This document shows, in pieces, positions 1,644-26,685 of a stretch of DNA of 60,103 bases. Source of the DNA: Pseudomonadota bacterium (GTDB taxonomy: Bacteria > Pseudomonadota > Gammaproteobacteria > Acidiferrobacterales > UBA6901). The DNA lies in assembly GCA_027364845.1 (NCBI GenBank), contig DAHXOO010000012.1, positions 1-60,103 on the forward strand, written 5' to 3'. The position numbers and the translations under genes are program-made. How positions within the stretch are numbered: position 1 is the first letter of the stretch; each line of letters opens with the position of its first letter. A model generated the notes under the pieces. That model did no database searches, was not told the DNA's origin, and saw only the letters and a list, made by a program, of their open reading frames with translations.

Positions 1644-2237
1644 ATGTTGAAAGTCATGAAATCCCTTTCCCTTGTCGTACTGCTGTTCATGGCGCTGGGC
1701 GCACTGGCACCAGTCTCCGCACAGGAATCCAAGCATCCGGTAGTAGCGCCGCAACCGGGCTACCTCATCCAGCCGGGCGACATTCTGACCATTGCCGTGT
1801 GGAAGGAGAAGGACTTGGAGGCCGACGTGCTGGTACTCCCCGACGGAACGCTTTCGTTCCCGCTAACCGGAGAGGTTCAGGCCGCTGGCAGAACCGTGCC
1901 GCAAGTCAGGGAGGAAATCGTCGCCCGACTTGGCAAATACATGCCCAACCCGGTGGTGACCGTGACCGTTAAACAGACCCAGGGTAACGTGATCTACGTG
2001 ATCGGCAACGTGAACAAACCGGGCGCGTTTGTCGCCAACTCCTATCTTGACGTGATGCAGGCGCTGAGCCTGGCCGGCGGTATGACGCCGTTCGCCTCGG
2101 ACAACAACATCAAGATCCTGCGCCGCGTAAACGGAACAGAGACCGCCACCCGGTTCAAGTACGGCCAGGTCGAAGATGGCGAACATCTTGGGCAGAACAT
2201 CGTTCTGCAGGCCGGCGACGTAGTGGTGGTGCCCTAG
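1644..2237 (+). CDS. Wza-type polysaccharide export protein of a PEP-CTERM/exosortase EPS locus
   Basis: Outer-membrane/periplasmic auxiliary protein for exopolysaccharide export, 197 aa. A signal peptide covers residues 1-26 (hydrophobic core, then PVSAQ). It lacks a lipobox cysteine, unlike classical Wza. The Poly_export domain spans roughly residues 35-110 (LIQPGDILTIAVWKE, PDGTLSFPLTGEV) and an SLBB-like domain follows (VIGNVNKPGAF). The short length fits the XrtA-associated subfamily rather than full Wza. I chose the ATG at 1644 because it opens the signal peptide; the frame also has an upstream TTG at 1596. The beta-barrel gene follows after 141 bp, pointing to one export operon. Confidence 0.85.
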   Translation: MLKVMKSLSLVVLLFMALGALAPVSAQESKHPVVAPQPGYLIQPGDILTIAVWKEKDLEADVLVLPDGTLSFPLTGEVQAAGRTVPQVREEIVARLGKYMPNPVVTVTVKQTQGNVIYVIGNVNKPGAFVANSYLDVMQALSLAGGMTPFASDNNIKILRRVNGTETATRFKYGQVEDGEHLGQNIVLQAGDVVVVP

Positions 2238-3746: not shown

Positions 3747-4320
3747 AGATCAATGGTTTATAAGCATAGATACTGCTGCTAAAGGCACTATTCGAGAAAA
3801 GCAGGAAGGCCTGATAGAATGGGTCAGCTCGGTAGAGACCCAAAATCGCCCATCGACAGAACCGGACGGAGAGGGGCTGCTTTTACTAAAAGCACAATAA
3901 TCCCCCGAGCACGCGACGGGACCCGGTCTTGACGCGGGAGGATGGCGAGGAGGCGATCGGTGTCCTATTTTTAAACCCAGCAGTAACAAACACAGGCGCC
4001 CGCCATCGATATCGGCGTGTGTGACATCCTTGCTCGCGGGATCTGGGGGGTTGCGAGAAAAATAGTGGTGTCTGGCACAGGCTGGCGCTGGATGTACAAC
4101 TGAGACAGCGGCCGGCCGTGTCCCCGGGCGTTACCCGACGGACGTAGGAAACGATGTCGTAACGCCTGTTGGCCAGGCTTGAGCCACACAAGGGTGGATT
4201 TGCGCAGAGGTTGTGTGTGCGGCTCGGCATCCCCACCTTGCGAAGAGGAAAAATGTTAAGAGCCGCGCAGAAGGCCACCCAACCCCGGCGTGACGGCATC
4301 CAGCAACGGCGACGCCTGCA
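3747..4320. other. intergenic stretch, no gene seen
   Basis: About 570 bases between the barrel gene and the chain-length gene. Open frames here have no recognisable motif, ribosome binding site or sensible composition. I see no convincing promoter or terminator. It breaks what would otherwise be one export operon. Confidence 0.4.
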
Positions 4321-22723: not shown

Positions 22724-23013
22724 CGCAACTTGCAGCCTTTATGATCGACGCCTCATGCGGGGCGTTCTGGCTGGTCTTTCCAGATCCTACTCGCCCCACT
22801 ACAAACGGAAGCAAACACCCGGGCACTTTTCGGGAGACCGGTTGACTAACAAAGCGGTTTTGCGCCTATGGCACGACATTCCGGTGCCCCAAGCATTGTG
22901 TAACCGCTGGGTCGCAACTCGTTGCTGCCTCCGGTGCATTCTCGATAGTGCGTTCTGGATCGCGGGCGCGCACGGCCATAACCCATAACACACAAACTGG
23001 ATGTTCCCAGCGC

Positions 23014-24207
23014 ATGAAAATTATCCACGTCGTGGACTCACTGGACCCGGCGCAAGGCGGGCCACCCATGGTCGTAGCCCGGTTAGGGGCCGCACAGGCA
23101 CAGCTGGGACACGACGTTGAAATCGTCTCCCTGGAATCACATGGCAGTAACAACCAAGTTAACGTCTCGCTCGAAGGCATTCCGCATCTCGACCAGGTCA
23201 CCTTCACGCTGATCAAACGAGGTGGCCCTGTCGATCAACTCCTGGCAACCGCTGCCGGCAGGTATCTCACCCGGCGCGTACCCGAGGCAGATGCGGTACA
23301 TCTGCACAACATGTGGCGGCCCCTGTTGGTAGTGGCCGCGAAAACCGCGAAGCGGGCCGGCGTCAAATATGTCATCGCACCGCATGGGGCGCTTTCGCGG
23401 TGGTCCCTGGGACAGAAACGCTGGAAAAAGCAGGTCGCGCTAGCCCTCGGATGGCGAAAAATCTTGAATGAGGCTTTTTTCATCCATGCACTCAACGCCG
23501 ACGAGGTACGCGAGTCGGCCCCGCTACAGCTGCAACCGCCAGTCGAGATAATCCCTAATGGGGTATTTCCGGAAGAAATCGATAACCTCCCGGAGAAATC
23601 TACGTTTCGTGGATTGTACCCTCAATTGAAGGATCGGCCTTACATCTTGTTTCTTGGCCGGCTGCATTATAAGAAAGGTCTTGATTACTTAGCTGACGCA
23701 TTCAACAGGTTCGCCCGCCAGACGCCGTCTGCGGATCTGGTTGTCGTGGGACCGGACGGGGGCGCAGGCCAGATGTTCGAGGAACGCATCGCGCAGTTCG
23801 GCCTCACGGGGCGCGTACACATGGTCGGTCCGCTATACGGTTTCAAGAAATATGCGGCGATGGTTGACGCCTTATGTATCTGCCTACCGAGCCGAGATGA
23901 GGGTTTCAGCATGACAATCACCGAGGCAATGGGTTGCGGCCTGCCGGTGGTCATTTCCAGGAACTGTAACTTTCCAGAAGTCGCCGAGCTCGAAGCCGGC
24001 GAGGTCGTAGATCTCGATGCTGCCGCAATCAGCGCCGCTTTGCTACGCATGGCGACCGATGAAAACTGGAGGCATCGCGCAGGCCAAGCGGCGCGACAGC
24101 TGGTCTTGTCGCGATTTACATGGCCAACCATCGCGCAGAAATCAATCATCGCTTATAACACAAATCATGAATCTCGTCGAGACCAGTGGCAATCCTCTTC
24201 ACGGTAA
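23014..24207 (+). CDS. glycosyltransferase family 4
   Basis: 397 aa GT-B enzyme. MKIIHVVDSLDPAQGGPP is the typical N-terminal acceptor-domain start. ILFLGRLHYKKGLDYLADAF begins the donor domain and PSRDEGFSMTITEAMGCGLP has the E-x7-E motif. ATG 23014 is used because an upstream extension to 22948 is not family-like. The last codons and the stop are supplied by the left end of the downstream IS, yet the encoded tail (WQSSSR) equals the tail reconstructed without the IS. Confidence 0.85.
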   Translation: MKIIHVVDSLDPAQGGPPMVVARLGAAQAQLGHDVEIVSLESHGSNNQVNVSLEGIPHLDQVTFTLIKRGGPVDQLLATAAGRYLTRRVPEADAVHLHNMWRPLLVVAAKTAKRAGVKYVIAPHGALSRWSLGQKRWKKQVALALGWRKILNEAFFIHALNADEVRESAPLQLQPPVEIIPNGVFPEEIDNLPEKSTFRGLYPQLKDRPYILFLGRLHYKKGLDYLADAFNRFARQTPSADLVVVGPDGGAGQMFEERIAQFGLTGRVHMVGPLYGFKKYAAMVDALCICLPSRDEGFSMTITEAMGCGLPVVISRNCNFPEVAELEAGEVVDLDAAAISAALLRMATDENWRHRAGQAARQLVLSRFTWPTIAQKSIIAYNTNHESRRDQWQSSSR

Positions 24208-26126
24208 ATTTGTTCTCAAAGCCCGGATGCCCCGGTTACCGAGTTTTTCGTCATCCGCAAGTAGTCGAAGACCATACGGGTACGGAAGCAGAGTTTGCGC
24301 ATCATCCCGGCGATGGATTGAGTGGGTTTCTGGAAGGACTTGAGGATACCGACCGCGAAGCGGCGCAGGCGGGTGATGTTTTCCGGGCCGAATCCGGTGC
24401 GGATTCGACTGCGATCCTCATCGTAGTTCCAGTCGATGATGTAATGAACGCTCTCGATGCTCCAGTGCCCGCGGTTGATGGCCAGCACCCGTTGCGGTGA
24501 GGCCTGTTGCGGAGTGCGACTCGTGATCCCCAGAGCGGTCTCACGCGAGTACTCACCGGTCTTTTTATGGATGGATTCGCGCTCGATCAGAAACACCTGA
24601 CCGACGCAGGGGAAGTCGAGGTAGGCATTGAGCGCCGTCCGGCACCAAATCCGCCGCGTCTCGATGCGACCGTGATCGGCGGATTCGATCTCGACGAAGT
24701 CGGCGGCGTCTCGTGTCTCGAACAGCAACGCGATATCGCGTTCCAGCGTGGGTTGGTTGCCCTTGACCGTGAAATGATAGTGCGCCCGCCGCTCGACCAG
24801 ATAGGTCGCCAGCGCGCGCTGGGTCAGCAGGGCGTCGGCCGTGATGTCCTTGCCCGCGATGTTACAGCCGTCAAGCAAAGGGATCGCCATGCCGATTTCG
24901 TTGGTGCGCTTGAGTTCATCGCACCCCGCACCGGGCAAGCTGCCTACTTTTTTTGGGCGTGACAGATTCTGGATTCATGTCCGACCACGCTCAGGATGTG
25001 TGCCTGATGTCCCGCTTCGTCGACGGCATTCTTCATGGTCTTGCCATCGATCGCCAGGGCGCTGTCCTGCGTCCCCCAGGCCTGATTCCAGGTCGTGAGC
25101 GCCCCATCCAGCGCGCCCGGCTTGATGCGAACCAGGCAATCGCGAATGACAAATTCACTGGGGACGACATAGCGTCCGTGCTCACGCCGGCAGCCGAAGC
25201 GCATCCGGGCCTGCTGTCCCAGGGCATCGGCCCAATCAGAGATGACCTTATAGCCGCGCATGCCGCACAGGATAGCGCCCGTCGCGATGCCCAGCACCAC
25301 GGGCAGGCGATGGCGTCGCCCCTGCGCACGGCGTGGATCGGCAATGGACAGGAAGCACTGTGGCAGCGAGCGCATTTGCTCGGCATTCAGCATGATCTGG
25401 GGGGCTCCTGTGAGTTGAAGGTGATTCCGGTCAGGGTGGGTCAGGTGGCGCCTGGGATCGCGGCACAAGGGGCGAACAAAGACCCGCTTGGGGGCGGAGG
25501 CGATAGCGCTGTAGCCTTTTTGGGTACGTCGATACCCCTGGGTCAGGCCCAGTTCCATCCAGTTGGCGGCGCGATACACGCCGCCATGAAAGCGCCTCGG
25601 ATCGACAAAAGTCTCCAGCAGCAGTAACGGATGACCAAAGCGTGCCGGCCAATCGGCCACGACCCGGCGTTCGGTCAGCGACAGGACCCGCGAGCCGATA
25701 TTCGGCCGGTGCCAGTCGGGCAGGATCAGGAAACGGCTGTTGTTGGCGATCAGCTTGAGCCGGCCATACTGGGAGCGAAAGTCCCAGCCGATCCAGCGAT
25801 CACGCACGCCGCATTTCAGGGCGGCGGCCGATAGGCTCAGCTGCGCTACCCACTCTTCCCGCCAGGTCGCGACGTACCATACTGTTTCACCGATCTTCGG
25901 CAGCGCGCCCAGATAGTGATGTTGCGCCATCTGCGCTTGATAACGCCCTTCCTCGTGGCGCTCCACTGGGCGGACTTGAAGCTCCGATAGGGCTTCGCTG
26001 GTGAGTTTCGCCGATTCCATCCGGTGATTTATACCGGGAATCCCGGGCGTTGTCCAGCCTGCTACCTTAATTCTCTGCTTTCTATAACTATTTCCGGTAG
26101 GGCAAATTCACCGTGCAATCCTCTTC
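24189..26126. mobile_element. ISAs1-type insertion sequence with DruA-like domain; 12-bp flanking repeat
   Basis: Direct repeats GCAATCCTCTTC flank the element at 24189-24200 and 26115-26126. The enclosed 1914 bp begin ACGGTAAATTTG and end CAAATTCACCGT, an inverted repeat with one mismatch. A second pair of inverted sequences lies inside (GCCCGGATGCCCCGG near 24220; CCGGGAATCCCGGGC near 26034). Twelve bases is somewhat longer than the duplications I know for ISAs1, so boundaries could be shifted. Confidence 0.65.
24216..26020 (-). CDS. DUF4338 (DruA-like)-ISAs1 transposase fusion, in two frames joined at an A7 run
   Basis: The first frame (26020-24944, 358 aa) has an N-terminal DUF4338/DruA-like domain (HHYLGALPKIGETVWYVATW, ANNSRFLILP; about residues 20-190) and then the ISAs1 N-terminal region with the first catalytic D in LAIDGKTMKNA. 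The second frame (24938-24216) carries the rest: KDITADALLTQ with the second D and GHWSIESVHYIIDW with the E. The frames meet at AAAAAAAG near 24950, where a -1 shift joins them exactly. This could be programmed frameshifting, as in other IS families, or a simple mutation. If the shift does not occur the enzyme is inactive. Confidence 0.7.
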
Positions 26127-26685
26127 GCGCTAAGCTGCAGCCAGAAGTATGCAGACAGGTTGCCTGAGAACCGGCGTCTGGCCCGGTCCGGTAGATCTCT
26201 GTAGGGGACGACAACAGACTCGGCCCGGTAGATACCAGAGTCCAAGAGTGGGGGATAGCCAGAACCTCTGCCCAAACCGTTCCTGTCTCACTGTGTGACT
26301 GAACCTGAACCGGCGCCTCGCGCCGCACAAGGTCTAAGTCCAAGCACAGAGCTGCTGAGAAAATCGGTGATTTTGAATACTTTAAGGCGTAAGATCTTGA
26401 CAAGTGGCTTATAGACCCACGAAGGGAAACGAGCCGAATCAATGACCGTAGTCCAAAATGGAAACGCGGCCATATTAGCGTCTGCCGATAACTGCATAAA
26501 ATTCATTCAAACACTCCCTTGGGAAATCTGGACCGAACTTTTATGGCATTGATTGGTCTGCTGCAGACAAGACCGGGCCGCGTTTCCCACAAACGCGGAG
26601 CCACAATCGGTATGTGGACGATTGCGGCCGCAGGACCCAGCGGAACCAGAATCTCCCATTACAATCGTTGATTCTGCGAGTTCTC
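26127..26685. other. intergenic between IS and fnl operon
   Basis: About 560 bases with no supported gene. It begins with the displaced end of the glycosyltransferase gene (GCGCTAA would have been its original last codons) and should hold the promoter of the fnl genes; I could not place it. Confidence 0.35.

Follow-up and report, generated by a model that had tools for sequence, protein, structure and literature searches.

In a 60,103-nt window of a gammaproteobacterial contig, an ISAs1-type transposase is written on the minus strand in two reading frames that meet at a run of adenines, which raises the question of whether the gene has been broken by mutation or whether the break is part of how the protein is made. 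The first-pass annotation, which confined the locus to 24216-26020, offered programmed frameshifting and fresh inactivation as alternatives. Both ORFs do lie within that span, but the element is larger: a complete insertion sequence (IS) of 1916 bp (24200-26115, minus strand), belonging to the ISAs1 family and carrying an N-terminal DruA domain. Its features are listed in Table 1.

An ISAs1-family element with a split transposase frame

The ends of the IS match the boundaries of its relatives in two other genomes (G001 and G301), and consist of 13-bp inverted repeats with one mismatch, flanked on both sides by a perfect 10-bp target duplication; target duplications of 8-10 bp are the range for the ISAs1 family. 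Identical 10-bp flanks were found for this IS and for eight related copies. The transposase is the sole content of the element, which is present as a single copy in its own genome. The IS entered a glycosyltransferase gene (22948-24207) at its extreme end, and comparison of the sequences at 24147-24207 and 26116-26135 revealed that its terminal bases restore the C-terminus of that protein, which reads ...QSSSR-stop with or without the element; the flanking genes are glycosyltransferase and polysaccharide genes. An intact, recently inserted ISAs1-family IS is the best explanation for this arrangement.

Table 1. Positions of the features discussed (window coordinates unless a locus handle is given).
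Feature	Position	Strand	Basis or remark
ORF1 (OrfA), 358 aa: DruA, DDE_Tnp_1-associated domain, start of DDE domain	24944-26020	-	
ORF2 (-1 frame): remaining DDE transposase, predicted to be entered by a -1 slip	24216-24949	-	NF033564, PF01609
DruA (DUF4338) domain, residues 14-164, Mom-like GNAT fold	25529-25981	-	Pfam PF14236
DDE_Tnp_1-associated domain, residues 221-311	25088-25360	-	PF13808, E 3e-16
Presumed first catalytic Asp (D325, AIDGKT), ORF1	25046-25048	-	translation and family knowledge
Presumed second catalytic Asp (ITADAL), ORF2	24834-24836	-	translation and family knowledge
Presumed catalytic Glu (HWSIES), ORF2	24453-24455	-	translation and family knowledge
Slippery heptamer A_AAA_AAG, in phase with ORF1	24947-24953	-	sequence; kept in relatives
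0-frame TAG stop directly 3′ of the heptamer	24944-24946	-	sequence
Target-site duplication, left copy CAATCCTCTT (plus strand)	24190-24199	.	identical to 26116-26125
Target-site duplication, right copy CAATCCTCTT (plus strand)	26116-26125	.	identical to 24190-24199
Terminal inverted repeat, ORF2 end: CACGGTAAATTTG	24200-24212	+	12/13 identical to opposite end
Terminal inverted repeat, ORF1 end: CACGGTGAATTTG	26103-26115	-	relatives show CAGGGCGAATTTG there
+1 break at TTTCCCCC(C) run in sister elements	L006 ~1210-1245; L098 ~1720-1745; L102 ~2785-2817; L101 ~1690-1705		

The proposed fusion of a DruA domain to an ISAs1 transposase, which the first-pass annotation had staked on a DUF4338 profile match, is well founded: Pfam DruA (PF14236, formerly DUF4338) matches ORF1 with an E value of 9e-21 (74.7 bits, cut-off 27), and the NCBIfam profile transpos_ISAs1 (NF033564) runs over both ORFs, with model positions 1-114 in ORF1 and 119-314 in ORF2 (E 1.5e-34, 119.6 bits, cut-off 70, for the ORF2 part). 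ORF2 also matches Pfam DDE_Tnp_1 (PF01609). From what is known of the ISAs1 family, we take D325 (in AIDGKT), the aspartate of ITADAL and the glutamate of HWSIES to be the DDE catalytic residues; since the first of these lies in ORF1 and the other two in ORF2, neither ORF alone could presumably be a DDE enzyme.

At the junction the frame of ORF1 reads CAA AAA AAG TAG, with the run of seven adenines at 24948-24954 and the G at 24947. The earlier identification of this A7G as a -1 slippery site holds, since A_AAA_AAG lies in phase within the ORF overlap, as a heptamer of the X_XXY_YYZ form, and a -1 slip on it yields ...PKKVGSLPGAG... and continues in ORF2. In Escherichia coli few heptamers are as shift-prone as A_AAA_AAG, and together with A_AAA_AAA it makes up the bulk of the heptamers of IS1 and IS3 elements (PMC4066793).

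We consider it highly probable that this is an intact IS whose transposase is made by -1 ribosomal frameshifting on A_AAA_AAG, the frameshifting itself being read from the sequence. Ordinary translation would give OrfA (358 aa), in which the Mom-like GNAT (DruA) domain described below is followed by the ISAs1 N-terminal domain and a single catalytic residue, the first, whereas a minority of ribosomes would slip one base back on the heptamer and enter ORF2, producing OrfAB, a fusion protein of about 600 aa in which the DDE triad is complete and which would be the active transposase. As in IS1 and IS3, frameshifting would then limit the supply of transposase, with OrfA produced in excess; OrfA may have a role of its own in DNA binding or regulation, and possibly in DNA acylation.

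The stimulatory stem that the first-pass annotation suggested looking for downstream does not appear as a conserved feature in folding z-scores or pair counts: the z-scores scatter round zero across the copies, except in L052 and L050, and a candidate 5-bp hairpin is only weakly above shuffles (41 of 500 gave covariation as high) and overlaps coding constraint. Inspection by eye found no conserved Shine-Dalgarno-like site upstream of the heptamer. Given that neither such a site nor a stable conserved stem was found, frameshifting probably takes place at a low level, as would be fitting for an IS.

Conservation of the break and mobility of the split form

We gathered relatives from one genome collection, and by searches at the order, class and phylum levels, and extracted the junction from each. 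In relatives with 58-88% identity, from about five phyla, the frame is broken at the same point. The same -1 break with A_AAA_AAG was found in Betaproteobacteria metagenome-assembled genomes (MAGs), Nitrosomonas, Acidithiobacillus, Nitrospira, Acidobacteria, Desulfuromonadales, Syntrophobacterales and Cloacimonadota; the copies were counted in assembled genomes, many of them MAGs, whose taxon labels may be in error where a mobile element is concerned. Conservation of the A-run in independent copies had been named as a check on the slippery site, and the in-phase heptamer is indeed present in 27 of the 32 clade members of the tree, from its deepest branch outwards to the tips. Because the break and the heptamer both recur in dozens of copies, we regard them as more than chance. 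The other five members (L032, L078, L039, L080, and L047) lack a working heptamer, so indels in the A-run do occur. Two copies have only six adenines (CCA AAA AAG in L037 and CGA AAA AAG in L057) and still retain an intact heptamer; it is therefore the heptamer, not the length of the A7 run, that is conserved, which we read as a sign of selection.

The position of the 0-frame stop appears to be constrained as well. All 25 tested copies have it at codon +1 or +6 after the site: the +1 stop is TAG, the +6 stop is TAG or TAA inside GTA-G, GTA-A or ATA-G, and every tested copy without the +1 TAG has the +6 stop. When ORF2 was recoded with the family's downstream codon usage (2000 runs), a stop occurred by codon 6 in a mean of 8.9 and a maximum of 16 of the 25 copies, and when the pooled codon usage included the site itself the mean was 17.9 and the maximum 24, in simulations that ignore the relatedness between copies. 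This constraint is a further likely sign of selection. Conservation of the frameshift site in independent copies is accompanied by selection on both frames: dN is much lower than dS both before and after the break, pointing to purifying selection on both halves.

These observations bear on where the slip takes place. The main rival to ribosomal slippage is transcriptional slippage, in which RNA polymerase realigns on the A-run and adds one A to some of the mRNAs; homopolymer A runs can slip during transcription, A8 and A6 variants occur among the copies, and this mechanism has been argued for several transposase families, with mixed shift directions as its sign and runs of n > 7 (PMC3711429). 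However, all copies that bear the site break frame in the -1 direction, the heptamer keeps its phase, and the run has seven adenines (six in L037 and L057). We infer that ribosomes, not RNA polymerase, do the slipping, since the constant direction, the conserved phase and a run of just six or seven adenines fit -1 ribosomal slippage best; a transcriptional origin seems unlikely.

A third possibility, that OrfA and ORF2 are separate complementing proteins, would need an independent start for ORF2, and a TTG at 24938 could initiate it shortly past the stop. The context near this TTG shows no conserved start, however; moreover, the catalytic triad is split between the two ORFs, and a conserved heptamer and phase would serve no purpose, leaving this arrangement barely credible.

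Evidence on mobility comes from a complete, single-contig genome (G001), which contains four full copies of a 1930-bp element that differ at 0-3 positions, lie at different sites, and all carry CCAAAAAAAGTCG, with the heptamer. Three of them have perfect 10-bp target duplications at their own ends, differing between sites; the duplication of the fourth (L086) encloses an additional 117-bp repeat of one end. Four near-identical split copies at different sites lead us to conclude that the split form transposes; a dead element would not easily spread in this way unless helped in trans. The copy in the window, with its perfect duplications and open frames, looks as fit as those in G001. As a separate observation, three longer G001 copies (L086, L087, and L089) measure 2047-2166 bp from one outer end to the other, owing to duplications inside the element or at an end, and retain the ends, the target duplications and the slippery site; and in L033 (~4074-4110) the sequence skips from just past the slippery site to the distal end of ORF2, as in an internal deletion derivative.

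Fresh inactivation would mean that the copy in the window derives from a single-frame transposase whose A-run lost one base. Runs of adenines are prone to indels, and two A8 copies (L039 and L080), the only close homologues with an uninterrupted frame across the junction, read through it in one frame; these, however, are damaged or partial, L039 having an internal stop and the match to L080 beginning only at residue 205. The first-pass annotation had named close homologues with one open frame and no A7 run as evidence against its proposal; single-frame close homologues are limited to these two damaged or partial copies. Within the clade the split state is the norm, and it has multiplied inside genomes, which refutes inactivation for the clade as a whole, and the position of the 0-frame stop is constrained. 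Of the two choices originally offered, then, programmed frameshifting is strongly favoured by the conservation of the split across phyla and by the four G001 copies, and inactivation of this copy is very improbable.

Beyond the clade, outgroup DruA-ISAs1 proteins with about 40% identity lack the slippery site in the tree; another such relative, L125 (in genome G288), is a single frame of about 595 aa through both halves, without an A-run and with a shorter linker at the position of the junction. These outgroup relatives suggest that the frameshift probably arose after the DruA fusion. Searches of viral contigs gave no close relatives of the element, and those of plasmids only distant ones (about 40% identity or less).

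Sister DruA-ISAs1 elements without the A-run have a +1 frame break elsewhere, at a TTTCCCCC(C) run that lies after the second Asp and before the Glu (Table 1); in L099 and L125 the frames are fused at this position. The sister elements have a 0-frame TAA inside GAT-AAG a few codons past the C-run, and L101 meets a TAA at once. This is possibly an independent programmed frame change, and could also be the product of indel-prone C-runs.

A Mom-like domain at the N-terminus

DUF4338 has already been called a GNAT (PMC10853773). We built an AlphaFold2 model of ORF1 (mean pLDDT 77.7), and Foldseek matched it to GNAT acetyltransferases, the best PDB match being Mom of phage Mu (8bv8, E 3.8e-7). A sequence search of PDB gave nothing meaningful, and one Mom sequence alone did not match the DruA profile; hhalign of the DruA profile against a nine-member Mom alignment gave 96.1% (E 3.7e-9, residues 7-194). 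In this alignment Mom Ser124, changed to alanine in the 'inactive' crystal structure, corresponds to S110, invariant in all aligned DruA domains; Mom Asp149 corresponds to D140, and Mom N163 to N153. The motif G-x-x-Y-x-A-(S/A)-N-(F/W) is common to both, and the acyl-CoA motif (Q/R)xxGx(G/A) is degenerate in the DruA domain (PNIGS). On the modelled fold and the aligned active-site residues, we place the DruA domain among the Mom-like GNATs, as a relative of DNA-modifying acyltransferases such as Mom; in the open-access literature we found no paper linking Mom and DUF4338. The relationship provides a concrete, testable idea for the function of DruA/DUF4338, in transposons and Druantia alike.

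The label of an antiphage-type domain, given in the first-pass annotation, is weak and finds no support here. PADLOC found no match for ORF1 or for the two flanking genes, the Druantia partners DruB-E are absent beside the element, and the flanks are polysaccharide genes; on these grounds a Druantia defence identity is not supported. The domain also accompanies other transposases: it is fused to a Tn5-type transposase in one locus (L100, 437-2818), follows directly after a Tn5-type transposase gene in another (L020, 2-2067; the genome G014 holds many DruA copies), and in the same genome as our IS a DruA gene adjoins an IS66 transposase gene (L030, 2-2424). The DruA of Druantia therefore seems to be one use of a wider family, better described as a Mom-like domain common in transposons, with one branch in Druantia.

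A bolder extension, which we regard as rather doubtful, is that a transposase lineage captured a Mom-like DNA acyltransferase domain, that frameshifting yields the modifying OrfA in excess, and that OrfA acylates adenines at the transposon ends or target. If true, this acylation might shield mobile DNA from restriction or mark sites, and the DruA of Druantia would be the defence-side use of a domain common to several transposon families.

Comparison with known systems

ISAs1 members are about 1.2-1.5 kb long and have one ORF. Our element shares with them (NF033564) the transposase core, the DDE domain, the terminal inverted repeats and the 10-bp target duplication, and differs in its length of 1916 bp, the additional N-terminal DruA domain and the -1 frame break. 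Frameshift control of transposases is known from IS1, IS3, IS5 and IS630; ISAs1 is not mentioned in the frameshifting papers that we searched in the open-access literature, and the present IS is a well-supported case from that family.

The N-terminal domain of OrfA in IS1 and IS3 is a helix-turn-helix, whereas that of the present OrfA is unrelated (Mom-like GNAT); in addition, no stimulator is evident here, and the break falls inside the catalytic domain, past the first Asp. Because the break splits this domain, automatic annotation will label such active elements as broken. The likeness to IS1 and IS3 lies in two overlapping ORFs, the -1 direction, the heptamer A_AAA_AAG and a fusion required for the full transposase (PMC4066793, PMC5009743).

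With the DruA of Druantia our element has the same Pfam domain (PF14236) in common, here enclosed in a transposon, with neither a PADLOC match nor the Druantia partners. In comparison with phage Mu Mom, the DruA domain is fused to a transposase and has a degenerate acyl-CoA motif; it shares with Mom the predicted GNAT fold, the profile match, the motif Y-x-A-(A/S)-N-(W/F) and the counterparts of Ser124 and Asp149.
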